A DNA stretch of 64,000 bases from Polaribacter sp. GTDB lineage: Bacteria > Bacteroidota > Bacteroidia > Flavobacteriales > Flavobacteriaceae. The position numbers and the translations under genes are program-made. This document shows, in pieces, positions 2,296-59,846 of this stretch. The stretch's first letter is position 1, and the number at the start of each line of letters is the position of its first letter. The stretch covers positions 1 to 64,000 of the forward strand of contig JALQYN010000012.1 of NCBI GenBank assembly GCA_023254055.1. The letters are read 5' to 3'. The notes below the pieces were generated by a model that ran no database searches, had not been told where the DNA came from, and worked only from the letters and a program-made list of their open reading frames with translations.

Positions 2296-3054
2296 TTAAC
2301 GTGTAAACACCAATTCTGTTTCTGATGACATACCTTCAGAAAAACCGTAGTTCTCAATATTGAATCCTTTTAAACCTTCAATAGTTGTAATATTGTTATC
2401 AATAATATAACGCACCATTAATCCACGTGCTTTTTTAGCAAAGGTCATAATGGTTTTGTATTGCCCGTTTTTAAAATCTTTAAATACTGGAGTAATCATA
2501 GGCACTTTCAATACTTTTTGATTGACCGCTTTAAAGTATTCTGAACTTGCTAAGTTGACAAATAATTCATCATCTGTTAATTCTTCATTTAAAGCATTGG
2601 TTATTTTATCTCCCCAGAATTTGTACAAGTTTTCTGTTTTACCAACTTTTAGCTTTTTACCCATTTCTAAACGATATGGCTGCATTAAATCCAACGGCTT
2701 CAGTAAACCATACAATCCAGATAAAATTCTTAATCTTTCTTGTAAAACAGGAATTTTATCTGAAGCTAAAGAATTAACATCAATACCTCTAAAAACCTCC
2801 CCAGTAAAAGCAAAAACAGCTTGTTTAGCATTATCTGGTGTAAATGGCAAACTCCATTCTTGATTTCGTTGATAATTTAGCTCTGCTAAATCTGCAGAAA
2901 TCCCCATAAATTCTGATAGTTTTTTTCTAGAAAGTGTTTTTAATTTTTTATTAAGTTTTACAGAATCTTCTAAAAACTGTGGTTGAGAATACAAACTTGT
3001 TGAAACTGTACTTTCAAAATCTAATGATTTCGCTGGAGATATAATAATTTTCAT
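2296..3054 (-). CDS. yaaA: YaaA family peroxide-stress protein (DUF328)
   Basis: MKIIISPAKSLDFES N-terminus and ISGLYGLLKPLDLMQPYRLEMG motif; the longer ORF start at 3099 is probably not used. Confidence 0.9.
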   Translation of the reverse strand: MKIIISPAKSLDFESTVSTSLYSQPQFLEDSVKLNKKLKTLSRKKLSEFMGISADLAELNYQRNQEWSLPFTPDNAKQAVFAFTGEVFRGIDVNSLASDKIPVLQERLRILSGLYGLLKPLDLMQPYRLEMGKKLKVGKTENLYKFWGDKITNALNEELTDDELFVNLASSEYFKAVNQKVLKVPMITPVFKDFKNGQYKTIMTFAKKARGLMVRYIIDNNITTIEGLKGFNIENYGFSEGMSSETELVFTR

Positions 3055-3200
3055 ATTGCTGTTTTGTTGATGAAGTAAAAATACAAATGCAATTAACAAC
3101 TGTCAAGTTTTTAGAAAAATTCTATCGATGTACTTATAAAGAGAATTGATATATTCCTTTTTAAGTAAATTTGATGCATCTAAATAAAAGCGTTTTCAAA

Positions 3201-3653
3201 ATGAAAAAAATAATATTATTAAGTGTTTCTATATTTCTATTAGCTACAACTTCTTATGGTCAAAGTAAAGAATATCAAAAAAAGAAATTAGAAAAAATAA
3301 CTAAAGGCTCAGTGTTCACAAAAATAATCAACAGAGAATTACCCGCTCATATTGTTTATGAAGATTCAGATATAATAGCATTTGTTCCGTTAAGACTTCA
3401 AGCCAGAGTACATTTACTAATTGTACCTAAAAAAGAAATTCACACCATTAATGATGCAACAGAAAAAGATTTAAAAGTTCTAGGAAAGTTATTTTTAGTC
3501 GCTAAAAAGCTAGCAAAAGAAAATGGAATTTCAGAAACTGGATACAGACTTTCAATAAACATCAATGAAGATGCTGGTCAATCTGTGTTTCATTTACACA
3601 TGCACTTGTTGGGAGGTGAAAAATTAGGACCTATGGTAGCTCAAAAAGAATAA
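3201..3653 (+). CDS. HIT-family protein with N-terminal signal peptide
   Basis: HLHMHLLGG histidine triad; N-terminus MKKIILLSVSIFLLATTSYGQ looks like a Sec signal peptide. Confidence 0.85.
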   Translation: MKKIILLSVSIFLLATTSYGQSKEYQKKKLEKITKGSVFTKIINRELPAHIVYEDSDIIAFVPLRLQARVHLLIVPKKEIHTINDATEKDLKVLGKLFLVAKKLAKENGISETGYRLSININEDAGQSVFHLHMHLLGGEKLGPMVAQKE

Positions 3654-3691
3654 TTGAACTTAATTCTAAAATCAATACCAATCACTTTTCT

Positions 3692-4723
3692 TTAAACCTC
3701 GTCTTTAGAATTTATGGTATAGGTTCTCCATTTTTCTAAACAAGCAGCAATATCTTCTGGAATTTCAGAATTAAAACGCATAAATTCTCCAGTTACTGGA
3801 TGTGTAAATCCAAGTGTTTTTGCATGTAAAGCTTGTCTTGGTAAGGTCTTAAAACAATTCTGCACAAATTGCTTGTATTTAGTAAAGGTTGTTCCTTTTA
3901 AAATATCATCTCCTCCATAACGTTCGTCGTTAAATAAAGTATGACCAATGTGTTTAAAATGCGCTCTAATTTGATGTGTTCTTCCCGTTTCTAATTTACA
4001 TTGCACCAAGGTTACATAAGTCAATCTTTCTAAAACCTTAAAATGTGTAACGGCGTGTTTCCCAAAATCTCCTTCAGGAAAAACATCCATTTGTAAACGA
4101 TTTTTTAAACTACGACCAATATTTCCTTCAATAACACCTTCATTTTCTTCAATATTTCCCCAAACCAAAGCATAATACAACCGCTCGGTAGTTCTATCAA
4201 AAAACTGTTTTGATAAATGCGCCATGGCAAATTCGGTTTTTGCAACCACTAACAGACCACTTGTATCTTTATCAATTCTATGTACCAAACCTGGACGTTC
4301 ATTAGAATTGGTAGGTAAGTTTTCTATATGATGAATTAATCCGTTTACTAAAGTTCCAGAATAATTTCCGTGTCCAGGATGTACTACCATTCCTGCGGGT
4401 TTATTTACCACAATAACCGTATCATCTTCGTAAACAATTTCTAACGGAATGTCTTCAGCAACTAGTAAATTCTCTGCAGGTGGATGAGCCAACACAACGC
4501 GAACAATATCTTTGGGTTTAACTTTGTAATTTGATTTTACAGCAACATCATTTACCAAAACATTCCCTGCTTTTGCAGCTTGCTGCACTTTATTTCGAGT
4601 AGCATTTTCTACGAAATTCATTAAAAATTTATCAACACGTAAAGGCTCTTGACCTTCACTAGCTGTAAACCGATAATGTTCGTATAATTCGTCGTTTTCT
4701 ACTTCTATATTTTCTTCCTGCAT
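3692..4723 (-). CDS. RluA/RluD family pseudouridine synthase
   Basis: S4-like N-terminus, HRIDKDTSGLLVVAKT and GRTHQIRAHFKHIGH motifs. Confidence 0.93.
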   Translation of the reverse strand: MQEENIEVENDELYEHYRFTASEGQEPLRVDKFLMNFVENATRNKVQQAAKAGNVLVNDVAVKSNYKVKPKDIVRVVLAHPPAENLLVAEDIPLEIVYEDDTVIVVNKPAGMVVHPGHGNYSGTLVNGLIHHIENLPTNSNERPGLVHRIDKDTSGLLVVAKTEFAMAHLSKQFFDRTTERLYYALVWGNIEENEGVIEGNIGRSLKNRLQMDVFPEGDFGKHAVTHFKVLERLTYVTLVQCKLETGRTHQIRAHFKHIGHTLFNDERYGGDDILKGTTFTKYKQFVQNCFKTLPRQALHAKTLGFTHPVTGEFMRFNSEIPEDIAACLEKWRTYTINSKDEV

Positions 4724-37223: not shown

Positions 37224-37250
37224 AAAATGTAATTATATAACACGTTGCCA
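37224..37250. repeat. attC-like repeat X, right arm only (start of cassette 0)
   Basis: tgtaattatataacacGTTGCCA; reverse complement CAACGTGTTATATAATTACA resembles the left arms of the other repeats. Confidence 0.65.
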
Positions 37251-37270
37251 TTCATTGAAAACAAACCAAA

Positions 37271-37450
37271 ATGAAGAATAAAAAGTTAATATATATAATA
37301 ATTAGAATTTTAATTGTAATACTAATTTTTAGTGTTTTAGATTTTGATTTTGATAAAATCAAAAGTGCTCTTTCTGATGGAGCAACACAAATGATTTTGA
37401 TTTTGACTTTGCTTTTTGTTTTCCTTCAATACTTACAAAAGAAAAAATAA
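37271..37450 (+). CDS. Small membrane protein (59 aa), cassette 0
   Basis: MKNKKLIYIIIRILIVILIFSVLDFDFDKIKSALSDGATQMILILTLLFVFLQYLQKKK; two predicted TM segments; below the ORF track cutoff. Confidence 0.6.
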   Translation: MKNKKLIYIIIRILIVILIFSVLDFDFDKIKSALSDGATQMILILTLLFVFLQYLQKKK

Positions 37451-37594
37451 TTATGAATTATGCCTCTTTCGGAATTGCTCAGTCAATCGGAATTGAAATA
37501 TTTTAAAGAATAATATGCTGACCGAAATTACTCAAACGCTGGAAAAACAAAACGGAATTTAGCTGAATAATTTGAACTCTGAAAAACAACGAAA

Positions 37595-37725
37595 TGGCAA
37601 CAACGTGTATAATTAATTGCTAGTTCTAGCTTACTTACGAAAATCCTCTCGGATTTTCTATTCGGTTTGTATTTACTAAATTAGTCGCTTAAACACGCAA
37701 CAACTCATACACAAACACGTTGTAC
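37595..37725. repeat. attC-like repeat A (131 bp)
   Basis: TGGCAACAACGTGTATAATTAATTGC...GAAAATCCtctcGGATTTTC...GCAACAACTCATACACAAACACGTTGTAC. Confidence 0.85.
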
Positions 37726-37864
37726 GCAAGCTTGACTCGCACTGAATAAAGGTTGCGTAATACTTAAAACCTAATAACAATTCAGTCCATATTTATCATT
37801 ATTCAAAGGGTTTGCCACAGATGGCATAAAGATGTCATAAGCTTGGCGCAAGTGACAACGCCCA

Positions 37865-37900
37865 TTGTATTTAATTTTGCTCACTGAACATTAAATACAA
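37865..37900. promoter_or_regulatory. 10-bp inverted repeat just upstream of the serine hydrolase start; candidate operator
   Basis: TTGTATTTAA (37865-37874) ... TTAAATACAA (37891-37900), 16-nt spacer, ATG at 37905. Confidence 0.5.
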
Positions 37901-37904
37901 ATCA

Positions 37905-39290
37905 ATGAATAATTTTTTTACAACACTCACTTTTCTTTTCATTACACATTTTAGCTTTAGTCAGAGCTATGAATCAAAAATAGACTCTATAGTTTCTTTA
38001 CATTATAGTTCTAATGATCCAGGCATTTCAATTTTGGTAGCGAAAGACGGTAAAGCCATTTATCAAAAAGCTTTAGGAAAATCAAATTTAGAATTAAATA
38101 CACCTATACAGCTAAACAGTGTATTTCAGATTGGTTCAATAACAAAACAATTTACTGCAGTTTCAATTTTAATGCTTGCAGAGCAAGGTAAGCTCAATAT
38201 CGAAGATAAAATTGGAAAATATATTCCCGAATATGCAGAGGTTGGAAAAGATATTACCATTCATCACTTATTAAATCATACTTCGGGAATAAAAAACAAA
38301 ACGCCTTTAAGTGAAAAGAATTATACCTCTAGAATGGATAGGTCTCCAAAAGAACTCATTACCTATTTTAAAGATGAACCATTGGTATTTATGCCTGGTG
38401 AAAAATTTAAATACAGTAACGCAGGTTATATTTTATTAGGGCAAATTATTGAAACAATTTCTAAGCAATCTTATGTTGAATTTATTCAAGAAAATATTTT
38501 TGATAAAATAGGAATGACGTCATCATACTATGGAAATATGAAACAAATTATTCCAAACAGAACTAATGGTTACATAATTGAACAAAATAAATATATAAAC
38601 GCAGATTATATGAGTTTGTCATTAGCATATTCAGCAGGTGCTATATTATCTACTACAGAGGATCTTTTAAAATGGCAAAAAGCATTACTTTCAAACACTC
38701 TTTTAAAAGCGTCTAGTATAAAGCAGGCTATGACACCAACCCTATTAAATAGTGGAAAAAGAATACCTTACGGATATGGCTTTCGGTTTTCAAGATTGGG
38801 GAATTCTCCTGTAATTGCACACACAGGAAGCACAAAGGGTTTTACCGGTATTGCTCTGTTTTTACCTCAAGAAAATATGTATATAACTGCATTAACTAAT
38901 TGCAATTGTAAAAATGTAAATAACGTTGCAAAACAAGTTGCAGAATTATTTGTTACTATACCTGACGCAAATAAAATTTCAGCAGTCACTAAAACCATTG
39001 AACAAGTAAAGAAGTCAATTGCTGTTCCCGTAGAAATATTAAATAACTATACAGGAACTTATGAGGTTAAACCAAACGTAAACCTTACAATCGGTTTAGA
39101 TAACACAAATCAATTATACTTATTAGCTCCAGGTCAAACTAAAAAGGTCGAACTTTTTGCTGAAACTCAAAATCATTTTTTTGTAAAAATTGTAGATGCA
39201 GAAATCACGTTTAATAAAAATGAAACGAATAATGTTATTAGCTTAACAATGAATCAATCTGGTCGTAAAATTATCGCTAAAAAGAACTAG
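37905..39290 (+). CDS. Serine hydrolase (class C beta-lactamase / penicillin-binding family), secreted; cassette 1
   Basis: FQIGSITKQFTAVSILMLAEQGKLN (SxxK), YSNAGY (YxN), HTGSTKGF. Confidence 0.92.
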   Translation: MNNFFTTLTFLFITHFSFSQSYESKIDSIVSLHYSSNDPGISILVAKDGKAIYQKALGKSNLELNTPIQLNSVFQIGSITKQFTAVSILMLAEQGKLNIEDKIGKYIPEYAEVGKDITIHHLLNHTSGIKNKTPLSEKNYTSRMDRSPKELITYFKDEPLVFMPGEKFKYSNAGYILLGQIIETISKQSYVEFIQENIFDKIGMTSSYYGNMKQIIPNRTNGYIIEQNKYINADYMSLSLAYSAGAILSTTEDLLKWQKALLSNTLLKASSIKQAMTPTLLNSGKRIPYGYGFRFSRLGNSPVIAHTGSTKGFTGIALFLPQENMYITALTNCNCKNVNNVAKQVAELFVTIPDANKISAVTKTIEQVKKSIAVPVEILNNYTGTYEVKPNVNLTIGLDNTNQLYLLAPGQTKKVELFAETQNHFFVKIVDAEITFNKNETNNVISLTMNQSGRKIIAKKN

Positions 39291-39291
39291 T

Positions 39292-39762
39292 ATGAAAAAC
39301 AACGAAAAAACTACTTTACAGCAAGCCATATATTATGCTAAAGCACCCATAATAATTGCACTAATCCTAACACCTGTTAGATATTGTTTAGAATTATTGG
39401 GATTGCCTGAAAATGCTATTTTTATTATCGGGCTACTTTGGCTTACTTTAGGATTTGCGATATATTTAGGCATTAAAATAGCTATGCATAAAAAAGCATT
39501 CAAGATTCTTTTATTAAGCTTGCTTATTTACTCAACTATTTCAAGGATTCCAGTTGCCATACTTTGGTGGGTAGATACAAAATGGGAAATTGGTACCCAT
39601 TATGGACTATATTATGATAATTTTGGGCAAGCGCTATTAAATCATGTTATATATGGGTCGTTAGTTCAATTGGTTCCTGGATTTTTATTAGGAACATTAA
39701 CCATAACAATAATGAGGTACAGAAAAACTTTAACTAAAAACAAACCTTTAAAAAATGGATAA
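39292..39762 (+). CDS. Membrane protein, unknown; cassette 1
   Basis: 156 aa with about four hydrophobic segments; tightly packed between flanking genes. Confidence 0.65.
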   Translation: MKNNEKTTLQQAIYYAKAPIIIALILTPVRYCLELLGLPENAIFIIGLLWLTLGFAIYLGIKIAMHKKAFKILLLSLLIYSTISRIPVAILWWVDTKWEIGTHYGLYYDNFGQALLNHVIYGSLVQLVPGFLLGTLTITIMRYRKTLTKNKPLKNG

Positions 39763-40330
39763 CAACTATTTAGCTTTAAGAGTAAAAGAATTGAGAAACC
39801 AGAAAGGAATGTCACAAGAATTTCTAGCAGAAGAATCTGGTTTAAGTTTACGAACTATTCAGCGGATTGAAAAAGGGGAGTCAAACCCAACAGGTGAGTC
39901 ATTGAAGCGATTAGCAAATGCATTAAATGTAAGTCCAGATGAGTTGATAGATTGGTCTGTAAAAGAAGATAAAAAATATTTAACGTATCTTAATCTCTCT
40001 GCACTTACATTTCTATTTTTCCCATTACTCGGAGTTTTAATTCCATTTATACTTTGGACATCGAAAAAAGGTAAGATTAAAAACATCAATAAGTTGGGTA
40101 AAGATTTAATCAATTTCGAAATCACATGGACAATACTGCTATTTTTTATCCCTATAGTATTGTTATTAATCTCAAAAATCGGACTCACAGACCAAATAAC
40201 TTTAAGTACATTTTTTATGGTTATTGGCTTTTTGTATGTCGCCAATTTAGTATTAATATTAATAAATACATTGAGAATTAACAATAAAAAAGAGGTGATA
40301 TATAGTCCTCGAATTAAGTTTTTAAAATAA
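39755..40330 (+). CDS. XRE-family HTH regulator with C-terminal membrane domain; cassette 1
   Basis: LRVKELRNQKGMSQEFLAEESGLSLRTIQRIEKGESNPTGESLKRLANALNV plus hydrophobic C-terminus; overlaps upstream ORF by 8 nt. Confidence 0.88.
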   Translation: MDNNYLALRVKELRNQKGMSQEFLAEESGLSLRTIQRIEKGESNPTGESLKRLANALNVSPDELIDWSVKEDKKYLTYLNLSALTFLFFPLLGVLIPFILWTSKKGKIKNINKLGKDLINFEITWTILLFFIPIVLLLISKIGLTDQITLSTFFMVIGFLYVANLVLILINTLRINNKKEVIYSPRIKFLK

Positions 40331-40340
40331 AAAAGCCAGC

Positions 40341-40472
40341 GTACAACAACGTGTATAGTTAATTGCTTGGTTCTTTCCTACTTTGGAAATTCCTTCAGAA
40401 TTTCCTCTGGTTCGTTTTCTTTTGTTAACTTAGTTCTAGCCAACGCAACTAGCCATACACAACACGTTGTGC
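40341..40472. repeat. attC-like repeat B (132 bp)
   Basis: GTACAACAACGTGTATAGTTAATTGCTTGGTTCT...GGAAATTCcttcaGAATTTCC...AGTTCTAGCCAACGCAACTAGCCATACACAACACGTTGTGC. Confidence 0.87.
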
Positions 40473-40496
40473 TTCATTATCAGAAAACGCTAACCA

Positions 40497-41225
40497 ATGA
40501 TAAAATTCTTTCGAAAAATAAGGCAAAACTTACTTATGAAAAATAAAACAGGTAAATACCTAAAATATGCCATTGGTGAGATTCTTTTGGTGATTATCGG
40601 AATCCTTATAGCAGTATCTATTAATGGTTGGAATGAAGACCGAAAGCTAAAAAAAGCAGAGCAGTCTATTCTTAAAGACCTTAAACAAGAAATGATAATA
40701 AATAAGAAAGCTTTGGAATATGCAATTGAGGAAAACGAAAAATCCTTTCAAACCGCAATAGAAATGAGAGCGCTTTTTAGAGACAGAGCAGCTTTTGATA
40801 AAATGTCAGATAGTCTGTTTTTTGAATCATTCAGAAAATTGAATTGGAACGTCACTTATGATTCGCAAAATGGGATACTTAATTCTATAATCTCTTCAGG
40901 ACAAATCAATCATCTTTCTAATAAGGAACTAAAATATTTACTCGCATCTCTAAAGGAATTGACAATAGATGCTATAGAAAATACACGAAAAATTGAAGCC
41001 CAAAGAGATGATTTGATTAAATCAGCTTGGACTAATGCCATGATTATTAAAGATGGAAAAAATGTAGGATTAAATGTGAAATCAATGTATGAGAATCCAG
41101 AATTTAGATGGGCAACGAACCATCTTTTTTATTTTCAACGTAAAGATGGATTAAAAGAAGAAAAAGAGCTAGCCGCAACTTTAGAGAATATTATTGAACT
41201 TATTAATGAAAATATTAATAAATAA
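40497..41225 (+). CDS. DUF6090-type single-pass membrane protein; cassette 2
   Basis: YLKYAIGEILLVIIGILIAVSINGWNEDRKLKKAEQSILKDLKQEM. Confidence 0.82.
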   Translation: MIKFFRKIRQNLLMKNKTGKYLKYAIGEILLVIIGILIAVSINGWNEDRKLKKAEQSILKDLKQEMIINKKALEYAIEENEKSFQTAIEMRALFRDRAAFDKMSDSLFFESFRKLNWNVTYDSQNGILNSIISSGQINHLSNKELKYLLASLKELTIDAIENTRKIEAQRDDLIKSAWTNAMIIKDGKNVGLNVKSMYENPEFRWATNHLFYFQRKDGLKEEKELAATLENIIELINENINK

Positions 41226-41230
41226 CGAAA

Positions 41231-41281
41231 GCACAACAATGGCTATAAGTAATTACTTGTTCTCGCATACTTCTGAAAATC
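41231..41281. repeat. attC-like repeat C, left arm only (truncated)
   Basis: GCACAACAATGGCTATAAGTAATTACTTGTTCTCGCATACTTCTGAAAATCC then abrupt switch to the rpmE2 terminator. Confidence 0.7.
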
Positions 41282-57171: not shown

Positions 57172-58110
57172 TCAACTATTTTTAGGTAAAAAAACTTCTG
57201 CCATCATACAACGTGCACTACCTCCTCCACACATTTCAATAGTTTGCAAGGAGCTATGAATGATTGGATTGTATTTTTCGATTTTTTGAAGTTGTTCTTT
57301 TCTTAACGAATCATAGGCTGCTGAACTCATTACTAAAAAGCGTTGATTGTTTTTTCCTATCACTTGCAACATATTTCCTGCAAAAGCATTTACTTGTTGT
57401 TCTGTAATATCAATGACCTCTTTTCCGGTTTCTCTCAAATGTTTCACAACATTTTTTCGTTCTTTTTTATCATCTATAGCAGCCAAACAAATGATAGCAA
57501 ATTGTTCTGCTACACACATCATTACATTGGTATGATAAATAGCTTCTCTTTGATTATTTACCGTTTGATTTGCAGTAAATAACACTGGAGTATACTCAAA
57601 ATCTTCGCAAAATTCGATAAACAATTCTTCATCTGCTCTTGGAGATAAAGCACAATAAGCAATGCTGTGCTCTCTATCTAAAATCATACTTCCTGTTCCT
57701 TCTAAGAAAATTTCTTCTTCTTCGGCTTCTGTATAATCAACAATATTTTCTATGACAAAACCTTTTGATTCTAAAATTTCTAGTACATCTTCTCTACGCT
57801 CTAGTCTTCTGTTTTCGGCAAACATTGGGTACAAAGCCACATCACCATTTTGGTGAAAAGAAATCCAGTTATTCGGAAAAAGCGAATCTGGGGTGCTTGG
57901 AGTTTCTGTATCATCTACAACAATAACGTTTACTCCTTGATTCTGTAATTTGATTACTAAATCATCAAACTCTCTTTGTGCTTTTGCATTAATGGTAGCT
58001 GGTAAGCTATCTATTACTTCTTGCTGATAATAATTATTTACCGCCGTTTGTTCGTTCATTCTAAAACCAACAGGGCGAACCATTAAAATAACATTTGTAG
58101 TTTGTTGCAT
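57172..58110 (-). CDS. ctlX: Citrulline utilization hydrolase CtlX / arginine deiminase-related protein
   Basis: NVILMVRPVGFRMNEQTAVNNYYQ; DSLFPNNWISFH; EMCGGGSARCMMAEVFLP. Confidence 0.88.
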   Translation of the reverse strand: MQQTTNVILMVRPVGFRMNEQTAVNNYYQQEVIDSLPATINAKAQREFDDLVIKLQNQGVNVIVVDDTETPSTPDSLFPNNWISFHQNGDVALYPMFAENRRLERREDVLEILESKGFVIENIVDYTEAEEEEIFLEGTGSMILDREHSIAYCALSPRADEELFIEFCEDFEYTPVLFTANQTVNNQREAIYHTNVMMCVAEQFAIICLAAIDDKKERKNVVKHLRETGKEVIDITEQQVNAFAGNMLQVIGKNNQRFLVMSSAAYDSLRKEQLQKIEKYNPIIHSSLQTIEMCGGGSARCMMAEVFLPKNS

Positions 58111-58207
58111 GCTGCAAAGTTAAGAATTTGGTTTGTTTCTAAACTCGTTTTTCGCTACCTTTCACTAAATCTTGAATTAAAATAGAAGTACGTTCGATAT
58201 CATAAAA

Positions 58208-58819
58208 ATTGTGCTTAATTAGAATCCTAACTTCAAATGAAAACCTTTAACCTAATTAAATTATCATTAATAATATGTGTAATTGGAACCTCTTGTGATA
58301 ATCGGTCAAGAGCCGAACATTTAAGAGATTATCTTCAGGATGAGCTATTGCCAAAAGGTTTTCAAGGAATTATTAAAAAAACTGAGTTATGGAAAGGGTG
58401 TTCTTATGCCATTGATATAAAGACAAAAACTGGTAAAATTGAAGAAATAAGCATTAATAATAATTGTGAAATTCTTTTTCAAATAAAAAAGGGAGATTAT
58501 TTTAATAAAATAGCAAACAGCAATAAATGTTCAATAGCTAGAAACGACAGCATAATTTATATTGACTGTATTGATTTGAATAAAAAACCCAAAAACGACA
58601 AAAGCCTATTGTCTGACATAAAAATAGAAGAACGGAATAGAGAAATTATCAATAAATGGAAATTCAAAAAGGATAAGAATTAAAAACTAAGCACAACAAC
58701 GTGTATAATTAATTGCTACATTTATAACTCAAAACACTAATATAGTTACGCTTTCAATCGGTTGATTTTCTATCGAAAATCTTCACTCACGAAACCGAAA
58801 CTAATCATACACAAAACCG
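58208..58819 (+). mobile_element. Solitary cassette-like insertion (gene 58237..58683 plus attC-like repeat D)
   Basis: Starts TTGTGCTTA (58208-58216), the exact reverse complement of TAAGCACAA (58688-58696) at the left edge of repeat D. Confidence 0.7.
58237..58683 (+). CDS. Hypothetical lipoprotein (cassette gene)
   Basis: KLSLIICVIGTSCDN lipobox; 148 aa, no recognised family. Confidence 0.75.
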   Translation: MKTFNLIKLSLIICVIGTSCDNRSRAEHLRDYLQDELLPKGFQGIIKKTELWKGCSYAIDIKTKTGKIEEISINNNCEILFQIKKGDYFNKIANSNKCSIARNDSIIYIDCIDLNKKPKNDKSLLSDIKIEERNREIINKWKFKKDKN

Positions 58820-58825
58820 TTAGCG
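58691..58825. repeat. attC-like repeat D (135 bp)
   Basis: GCACAACAACGTGTATAATTAATTGC...GATTTTCtatcGAAAATC...ACTAATCATACACAAAACCGTTAGCG. Confidence 0.85.
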
Positions 58826-58886
58826 AAACACTAAAATACATCCTTACACCAAATGCAGGAGGTACATTTCTTTCTTTAATAAAATC

Positions 58887-59846
58887 TTAAAGTGATTTTG
58901 AGATGGTTTTAGTAACATCATCTAAAATTTCGAATGCTGTTTCTGCCATGACATTTCCTTTTAAATCTAATAACGGATTTACCTCAACAAACTCTACACA
59001 AACCACTTTTTTTGTTTCAATAAATTGGTTCATAATTTGAGTAACTTCTTGCTGATCAAATCCTTTATTCACAGGTGTTCCTGTACCGTAAGAAACCATA
59101 TCGCAATCCATCGAATCTACATCAAAAGAAATATAAATAACATCACAATTAGATAATTTATCGATGGCTTCATTTACACATTGTTCTAGTCCTCTATAAC
59201 GAATTTCAGAAACGGTATAGTTTTTTATTTGAAGATTTTTAATTTGTTTTTCTTCTGGTTCTTCGGTATCTCTAACTCCAAAATACACCACATTTTCTGC
59301 AGCAACTTTAGGTCCTAGGATACCAACATTTTTCATTCGCTCCCATAAATCAGAAGTTTCTCTTGTTACTTCATTAATTTGGAACTCAAGATTGTCTTCA
59401 GACAAAGCTGCCGCTAACGGCATTCCATGAATGTTACCAGATGGTGAAGTATACGGTGAATGAATATCTGCATGCGCATCAATCCAAACAACACCCACAG
59501 TTTCTTTTGGGAAAGCTGCTTTTACACCACTAATAGTTCCTAAAGCGGAAGAATGATCTCCAGACAATACAATTGGAAACGTTTTTTCTTGTAGTGTAAC
59601 TTTCACATGATTGCTCAATCTTGTACACTGAATTAAAACACTGTCTATTCGTTTAGCAAAAGAATTTTTTACTTTGTTGTAAATAGATTCATTTGCTGTA
59701 GATACATCTGTAAATTCAAACTGTTCAAAATAATTATTGTTCTTGTTTATGGCTGCTATTTCTATGGCATCAATTCCCATATCAGAACCACGAGTTCCTG
59801 CACCAATATCTGACCTATTTTTAATTATTTTTATTGAATTTAACAT
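58887..59846 (-). CDS. Arginase/formimidoylglutamase family hydrolase
   Basis: VLSGDHSSALGTI, VVWIDAHADIHSP, IYISFDVDSMD. Confidence 0.92.
   Translation of the reverse strand: MLNSIKIIKNRSDIGAGTRGSDMGIDAIEIAAINKNNNYFEQFEFTDVSTANESIYNKVKNSFAKRIDSVLIQCTRLSNHVKVTLQEKTFPIVLSGDHSSALGTISGVKAAFPKETVGVVWIDAHADIHSPYTSPSGNIHGMPLAAALSEDNLEFQINEVTRETSDLWERMKNVGILGPKVAAENVVYFGVRDTEEPEEKQIKNLQIKNYTVSEIRYRGLEQCVNEAIDKLSNCDVIYISFDVDSMDCDMVSYGTGTPVNKGFDQQEVTQIMNQFIETKKVVCVEFVEVNPLLDLKGNVMAETAFEILDDVTKTISKSL

Follow-up and report, generated by a model that had tools for sequence, protein, structure and literature searches.

The question that this locus raises is how a single lipoprotein gene came to lie between a ctlX-like gene and an arginase-family gene, both on the minus strand as the original prediction had it, and what kind of target received it. 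By the window we mean the whole 64-kb stretch of DNA that was analysed, which belongs to a Polaribacter MAG (G000) of 2.25 Mb, 85.5% complete and chimeric. Two contigs of this MAG (G000:C74, locus L021, and G000:C67, locus L023) each carry an acyl-CoA dehydrogenase gene beside a truncated xer and are clearly different in sequence, so the assembly combines sequence from two or more strains or species. The features of the interval and its neighbours are as follows:

57172-58110, minus strand: ctlX-like gene (DDAH-family amidinotransferase), the left neighbour (Pfam PF19420, E 1.9e-111)
58209-58819, plus strand: mobile unit (cassette) of 611 bp, delimited by docking-site homology, by the reverse-complement rule and by another cassette that replaces it in the relative G169
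58237-58683, plus strand: lipoprotein ORF of 148 aa with a lipobox-like IGTSC; no family match above curated cut-off
58688-58819, plus strand: attC-like repeat D, with outer arm TAAGCACAAC (58688-58697), inner arms GTGTATAATTA (58701-58711) and TAATCATACAC (58802-58812), and last base G (58819)
58887-59846, minus strand: arginase-family gene, the right neighbour (Pfam PF00491, E 8e-55)

Read from the sequence, the cassette is a compact unit in which a single ORF is followed by an attC-type site, the same lipoprotein ORF and repeat D that had been predicted; the unit and its right end were also placed correctly, while its start had been set one base early, at 58208. The first nine bases, TTGTGCTTA (58209-58217), are the exact reverse complement of TAAGCACAA (58688-58696), the first arm of the attC-like repeat; the nine-base match thus stands, with its start arm moved from 58208-58216. 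The base preceding TT is A (58208), and after the cassette the sequence continues with TTAGCGAAACAC at 58820; the first base of the core does come from the target, as proposed. When the cassette is closed into a circle its bottom strand folds at -21.7 kcal/mol (z -5.63, none of 200 shuffles as low), against a z of only -1.84 for the integrated form, so that closure restores an imperfect palindrome and a strong bottom-strand hairpin. The R boxes, GCACAAC and GTTGTGC, are each one position off RYYYAAC and GTTRRRY, with the AAC/GTT core intact. No recombinase gene was found in the neighbourhood read around the cassette, and the locus therefore has what defines a CALIN or single attC, an attC without an integrase nearby. 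No Rfam model matched within the window.

Further copies of the attC-like repeat lie in an array at 37.6-41.3 kb of the window and on contigs C25, C39, C46, C59, C73 and C94 of the same genome. The copy number of GTTAGCGAAA in the 2.25 Mb is unremarkable (seven, against 11 for a backwards control pattern); six of the seven copies fall exactly at the 3′ end of the last attC-like repeat, and because of this we rejected the idea that dispersed GTTAGCGAAA was a pre-existing random target. A transposon with terminal inverted repeats was likewise rejected, since the cassette itself splits the arms and there is no target duplication. A search for direct repeats of at least 30 nt within the window did not reveal the repeat family. 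One leader, GTTTCTAAACTC...TAACTTCGCTAACTGCTGATATAAATCATTAAAACGGATTCATATCAAAATGCA, is common to the left ends of C39, C46 and C94, where it meets TTGTGC at the junction. As TTCGCTAAC is the complement of GTTAGCGAA, the array flanks, once joined, were expected to make up a further attC-like site. Joining the flanks of sister arrays predicted an empty site of 72 nt, for which 63 of the 168 genus genomes gave matches, and many of these span the full length of the joined sequence and so are empty sites. The array at 37230-41280 of the window begins after an attI-like ...AATTATATAACACG that meets TTGCC, has no integrase alongside, and closes with a truncated attC-like repeat adjoining a ribosomal protein L31-like gene region, without a GTTAGCGAA end.

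A covariance model found this docking site in half of the genus genomes (84/168, with 1-21 copies each), and in 62 of 400 family genomes, representing 46 of 237 genera, in a sample that includes a few members of the genus. By an exact degenerate pattern, the named matches among 85,462 species genomes were Polaribacter, Tenacibaculum and Algibacter, together with one uncultured member of the Flavobacteriaceae, and viral contigs had no site by that pattern. In the docking site, promoter-like boxes (TTG-N20-TAnnTT) are followed by an attC-like hairpin, TTCGCTAAC...GTTAGCGAA, that is cut at (A/G)^TT. Among 142 anchored sites the TTG lies upstream of the left arm by 27 nt (97 sites) or 28 nt (21 sites), with TAAC at the arm. 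As these boxes fit the Bacteroidota promoter consensus TTTG / TAnnTTTG (PMC7366714), they may well be active promoters.

The hairpin itself covaries. In an alignment of 19 empty sites, 95.4% of cells are paired in the order R''-L''-loop-L'-R', against 30-47% for slid versions, and 13 double changes were counted. Pairs in the inner arm alternate between T-A and G-C, G-C and A-T, and A-T and C-G, and the outer arm is nearly invariant. Bottom strands fold with z of -4.5 and -6.6. Altogether we distinguished 149 docking sites, about 50 of them empty and 99 occupied (an approximate split from partly chosen samples), mostly by one forward-facing cassette; the longest ORF is forward in 41 of the 43 loci that were parsed as a single cassette. 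Occupants begin (A/G)^TT[A/G], and nearly all occupied copies have the insertion at the same phosphodiester position of R'. In the 43 single-cassette loci the cassette start matches its own attC over a mean of 6.3 nt, against 4.0 nt when loci were shuffled (4.7 nt in the largest of 200 shuffles), and the window cassette matches over 9 nt.

Around the window cassette, the docking site is split as follows:

58130-58208, plus strand: left half of the docking site, a diverged copy, with left arm remnant TTCACTAAA (58161-58169) and right inner arm CGTTCGATATCAT (58191-58203)
58132-58163, plus strand: promoter-like boxes predicted from sequence, TTTG (58132-58135), a 20-nt spacer and TACCTTTC (58156-58163)
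58820-58829, plus strand: right half of the docking site, TTAGCGAAAC, identical to the ends of six arrays of G000 and to empty sites

The crossover lies directly after A 58208. Across the whole window, covariance model R1 scores highest at 58130-58226, which is the left flank of the cassette, with 18.9 bits; the E of 0.56 with filters off is weak alone, but the match lies at the expected place. The sequence to the left of the cassette is 93% identical, across 495 nt, to that of the orthologous intact site in G169; the left arm is degenerate in the window, with TTCACTAAA where G169 has TTCGCTAAC. Because the left arm has decayed, the window copy may be stuck and no longer able to release its cassette. 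The empty site had been predicted to be flanked by an 8-bp inverted repeat. It is so flanked, TTTCGCTA being the reverse complement of TAGCGAAA (58821-58828), although TTTCGCTA lies at 58150-58157, not at 58149-58156, and comparison with homologous sites assigns the left arm to the next repeat unit, TTCACTAAA, instead.

In the closest relative, G169, whose arginase is 97% identical, the ctlX-arginase interval holds an intact docking site. There ...GATATCATAAAAG (the left junction is also given as ...TTTCGCTAACTCTTGATATAAAACATTAAAACGTTCGATATCATAAAAG) meets TTGGCAAAC, and after the insertion GACG meets TTAGCGAAAC; the cassette at this identical junction encodes a beta-lactamase-family protein (PF00144), and a secreted-protein gene lies downstream. 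The orthologous site thus supports the junction that was predicted for removal of the module. An examination of relatives for an empty site between the two genes had been suggested, and the interval does hold an empty docking site in G148 and a diverged empty one in G144, these informative relatives having come from the wider genus search. The intervals of G020, G033, G031 and G011 have no empty site and only another gene (in G020 and G033, in place of a docking site), and that of G076 has neither site nor gene. In relatives (L275 at 2930-4060, L025, L027 and L028) a plus-strand gene whose C-terminus resembles a sorting signal stands between ctlX and arginase; the window does not have it.

The same pattern is seen at other orthologous loci. 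That of contig C39 holds a different cassette in G169 and is empty in G076, G144 and G148; that of C46 holds a different cassette in G169 and is empty on contig C8 of G000 itself and in G064; and a third locus carries different cassettes in G000 (C94), G093 and G136. The position of orthologous docking sites is conserved across species, and the cargo changes. As the element is conserved and kept at orthologous places, the target in the window is not a secondary site, as had been thought, but a copy of a dispersed element; nor does the A before TT mark an off-target insertion, for A^TT is also found at the cut in 5 of the 19 aligned empty sites. The contigs C8 (L113, empty) and C46 (L064, occupied) were considered as a perfect empty/occupied pair and rejected: site and right flank are 99% alike, but the left flanks differ beyond the promoter boxes, making this comparison weaker than that with G169. 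The homology of these two contigs starts exactly at the promoter boxes, and the docking site may also be a breakpoint for rearrangement.

We consider it very probable that the window unit is an integron-type cassette that entered a dedicated docking site on the chromosome through site-specific recombination. What carries this reading is the ends of the unit, the family of sites, the orthologous sites that are empty, occupied or differently occupied, and the covarying hairpin. The docking site would be a short dispersed element, with promoter-like boxes and then an attC-like hairpin in which the cut falls at (A/G)^TTAGCG. A circular cassette would open at G^TTGTGC and join it at the cut, so that a promoter would come to lie ahead of the cassette and the right half of the site behind it, with no duplication of the target, and the same site could be emptied and refilled. 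Recombination would probably proceed via a folded single strand, and the enzyme would be a recombinase of ~385 aa, related to IntI and Xer, that lies beside the main cassette array in relatives. Against integron-like docking stand the window genome, in which this integrase was not found, the genomes with sites but without it (see below), the lack of the IntI additional domain in that integrase, and, in the window, a docking site whose left arm is degenerate and whose E is 0.56.

This ~385-aa tyrosine recombinase, the long integrase, is conserved in the genus besides the Xer proteins. In several genomes an attI-like ATATAAC(C/T)(A/C)GTT lies after its gene on the same strand, together with cassettes that have the same kind of attC-like repeats, and the full platform of integrase, attI-like site and array is present in relatives such as G076, G020, G001, G021, G155 and G029, and absent at the window locus; no long integrase was found in the window genome, a chimeric MAG that is 85% complete. 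Five full-length proteins score ~196-208 bits with TIGR02249, in two stretches and below the cut-off of 265. Compared with VchIntI4 (PDB 2a3v), to which the core is related over two stretches and with which it shares -PLD near the C-terminus, the long integrase has ~43 residues fewer between the stretches (query 269-291, chain 181-246), where the IntI-specific additional domain near patch III is absent, and it has an extra N-terminal part of ~85 aa. The best sequence match, in one continuous stretch, is to archaeal XerA-type recombinases (NF040815; PDB 4a8e, 5hxy), from which it differs by the N-terminal extension and by its association with cassette arrays. We suggest that this extension might substitute for the additional domain in holding folded DNA. 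The ~85 residues (A2; L162, L208 and others) contain an invariant F, Y and W, and 2 of 11 members give a weak match, below cut-off, to the HARP domain (DNA annealing).

Docking sites occur in 69 of the 116 genomes with the integrase and in 15 of the 52 without it (Fisher P 4e-4, uncorrected for phylogeny). In addition, one cassette gene of the G021 integrase array, of HNH type, is found, with 98% protein identity, in a docking site of G017, where it is the second ORF of the docked unit and has the cassette start TTAGGCAACATT and the attC outer arm seen in G021. The long integrase is the likely enzyme for moving docked cassettes, a role that we infer.

A rival view is that the docked cassettes are moved by XerC/XerD of the host or by some other housekeeping recombinase, as happens with elements that exploit Xer, and that the long integrase acts on its own array alone. 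Xer proteins are present in all genomes, and the 15 genomes with sites and without the long integrase include some with many sites, such as G015 (14) and G059 (12). Such sites may however be relics, as CALINs are, and against a housekeeping enzyme stand the enrichment just described and the likeness of array and docked cassettes in their starts, in attC type and, once, in a gene; we regard this view as improbable, though it is the best of the rivals.

Much less likely is an ordinary integron event, in which a classical IntI placed the cassette at an off-target genomic (attG) site. That IntI inserts cassettes at attG is established (Loot 2024, cited in PMC12444791), and such an event would share with our locus an attC-like hairpin, a crossover at G/A^TT and cassettes at chromosomal places outside an integron. 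Yet the attG target is defined as non-conserved and as neither attC nor attI, and in the E. coli experiments relayed by the same source insertions spread broadly over many loci, whereas here the target differs in being a structured, promoter-bearing repeat of a conserved hairpin family, at fixed, orthologous places in several species. Moreover, none of the 168 genus genomes encodes a protein above the integron-integrase cut-off of TIGR02249.

To a similarly small degree we credit the possibility that the docking element is a repeat unrelated to integrons (a small RNA gene, a REP- or MITE-like element, or a terminator) and that the cassette boundary comes from an unrelated insertion hotspot. 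Promoter-like boxes with a hairpin, often followed in empty copies by terminator-like sequence, would allow transcription of a small RNA; an unrelated hotspot fits poorly with insertions that start TT[A/G] at the single position in R' and with the two arms of attC architecture, and no Rfam model matches docking sites at the eight loci searched. Vertical descent of the lipoprotein gene in all relatives, with repeats by chance, is refuted by the want of any homologue in the 168 genus genomes (or in plasmids) and by the other cargo at the identical junction in G169.

Returning to the docked integron-type cassette that we favour, the unit resembles integron cassettes, and SALIN or CALIN members, in its one ORF with a foldable attC-like site, its G^TT crossover, the R''/R' pairing restored by circle closure, and the lack of an integrase beside it; it differs in sitting in a dedicated conserved docking element, not in an array or at an arbitrary site. 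The genus also has the parts of a sedentary chromosomal integron (attI, Pc), namely an integrase gene oriented as the cassettes are, an attI-like site and an array, with promoter-like sequence upstream of the insertion point; but cassettes also occupy many platforms that hold one each and lie far from the integrase, and that integrase does not have the additional domain, which has been described as defining and necessary for IntI (PMC9668308, PMC4792948). Because the integrase fails this defining feature, we do not class the system with classical IntI integrons; we take it for a variant of the integron principle. Our confidence is evenly divided on the wider proposal that the Flavobacteriaceae have a separate lineage of integron-like systems, in which an XerA/IntI-related recombinase without the additional domain acts on a home array and also on dedicated, promoter-armed, single-cassette docking sites throughout the genome.

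Such systems have apparently been missed by current tools: Tenacibaculum larymnensis, reported as integron-free (PMC10013915), has a contig with an occupied docking site (L185). IntegronFinder 2.0 gave a single complete integron in Bacteroidetes proper, in Salinibacter (PMC9024848), and in the literature searched, the scope of which excluded subscription papers, we found no description of the docking element. Attachment sites of attC type are plausible in this host range, as attC-like sites of a Polaribacter phage, at least P12002L_attC2, recombined with IntI1 (PMC9892861).

The docking system makes it testable whether a recombinase without the IntI additional domain can use folded single-stranded sites. 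In classical integrons it is mainly the first cassettes, next to the single promoter, that are expressed. A genome with many docking sites at fixed places, each provided with promoter-like boxes of its own and usually with a single cassette, would have a different means of storing and expressing the genes that it captures; if this distributed arrangement is true, each cassette would have its own promoter and would not compete for one. In Polaribacter glomeratus (L135, G075:C1:277980-290034) six docking sites stand in a row on one strand, ~0.8-1.8 kb apart, and several of them hold cassettes.
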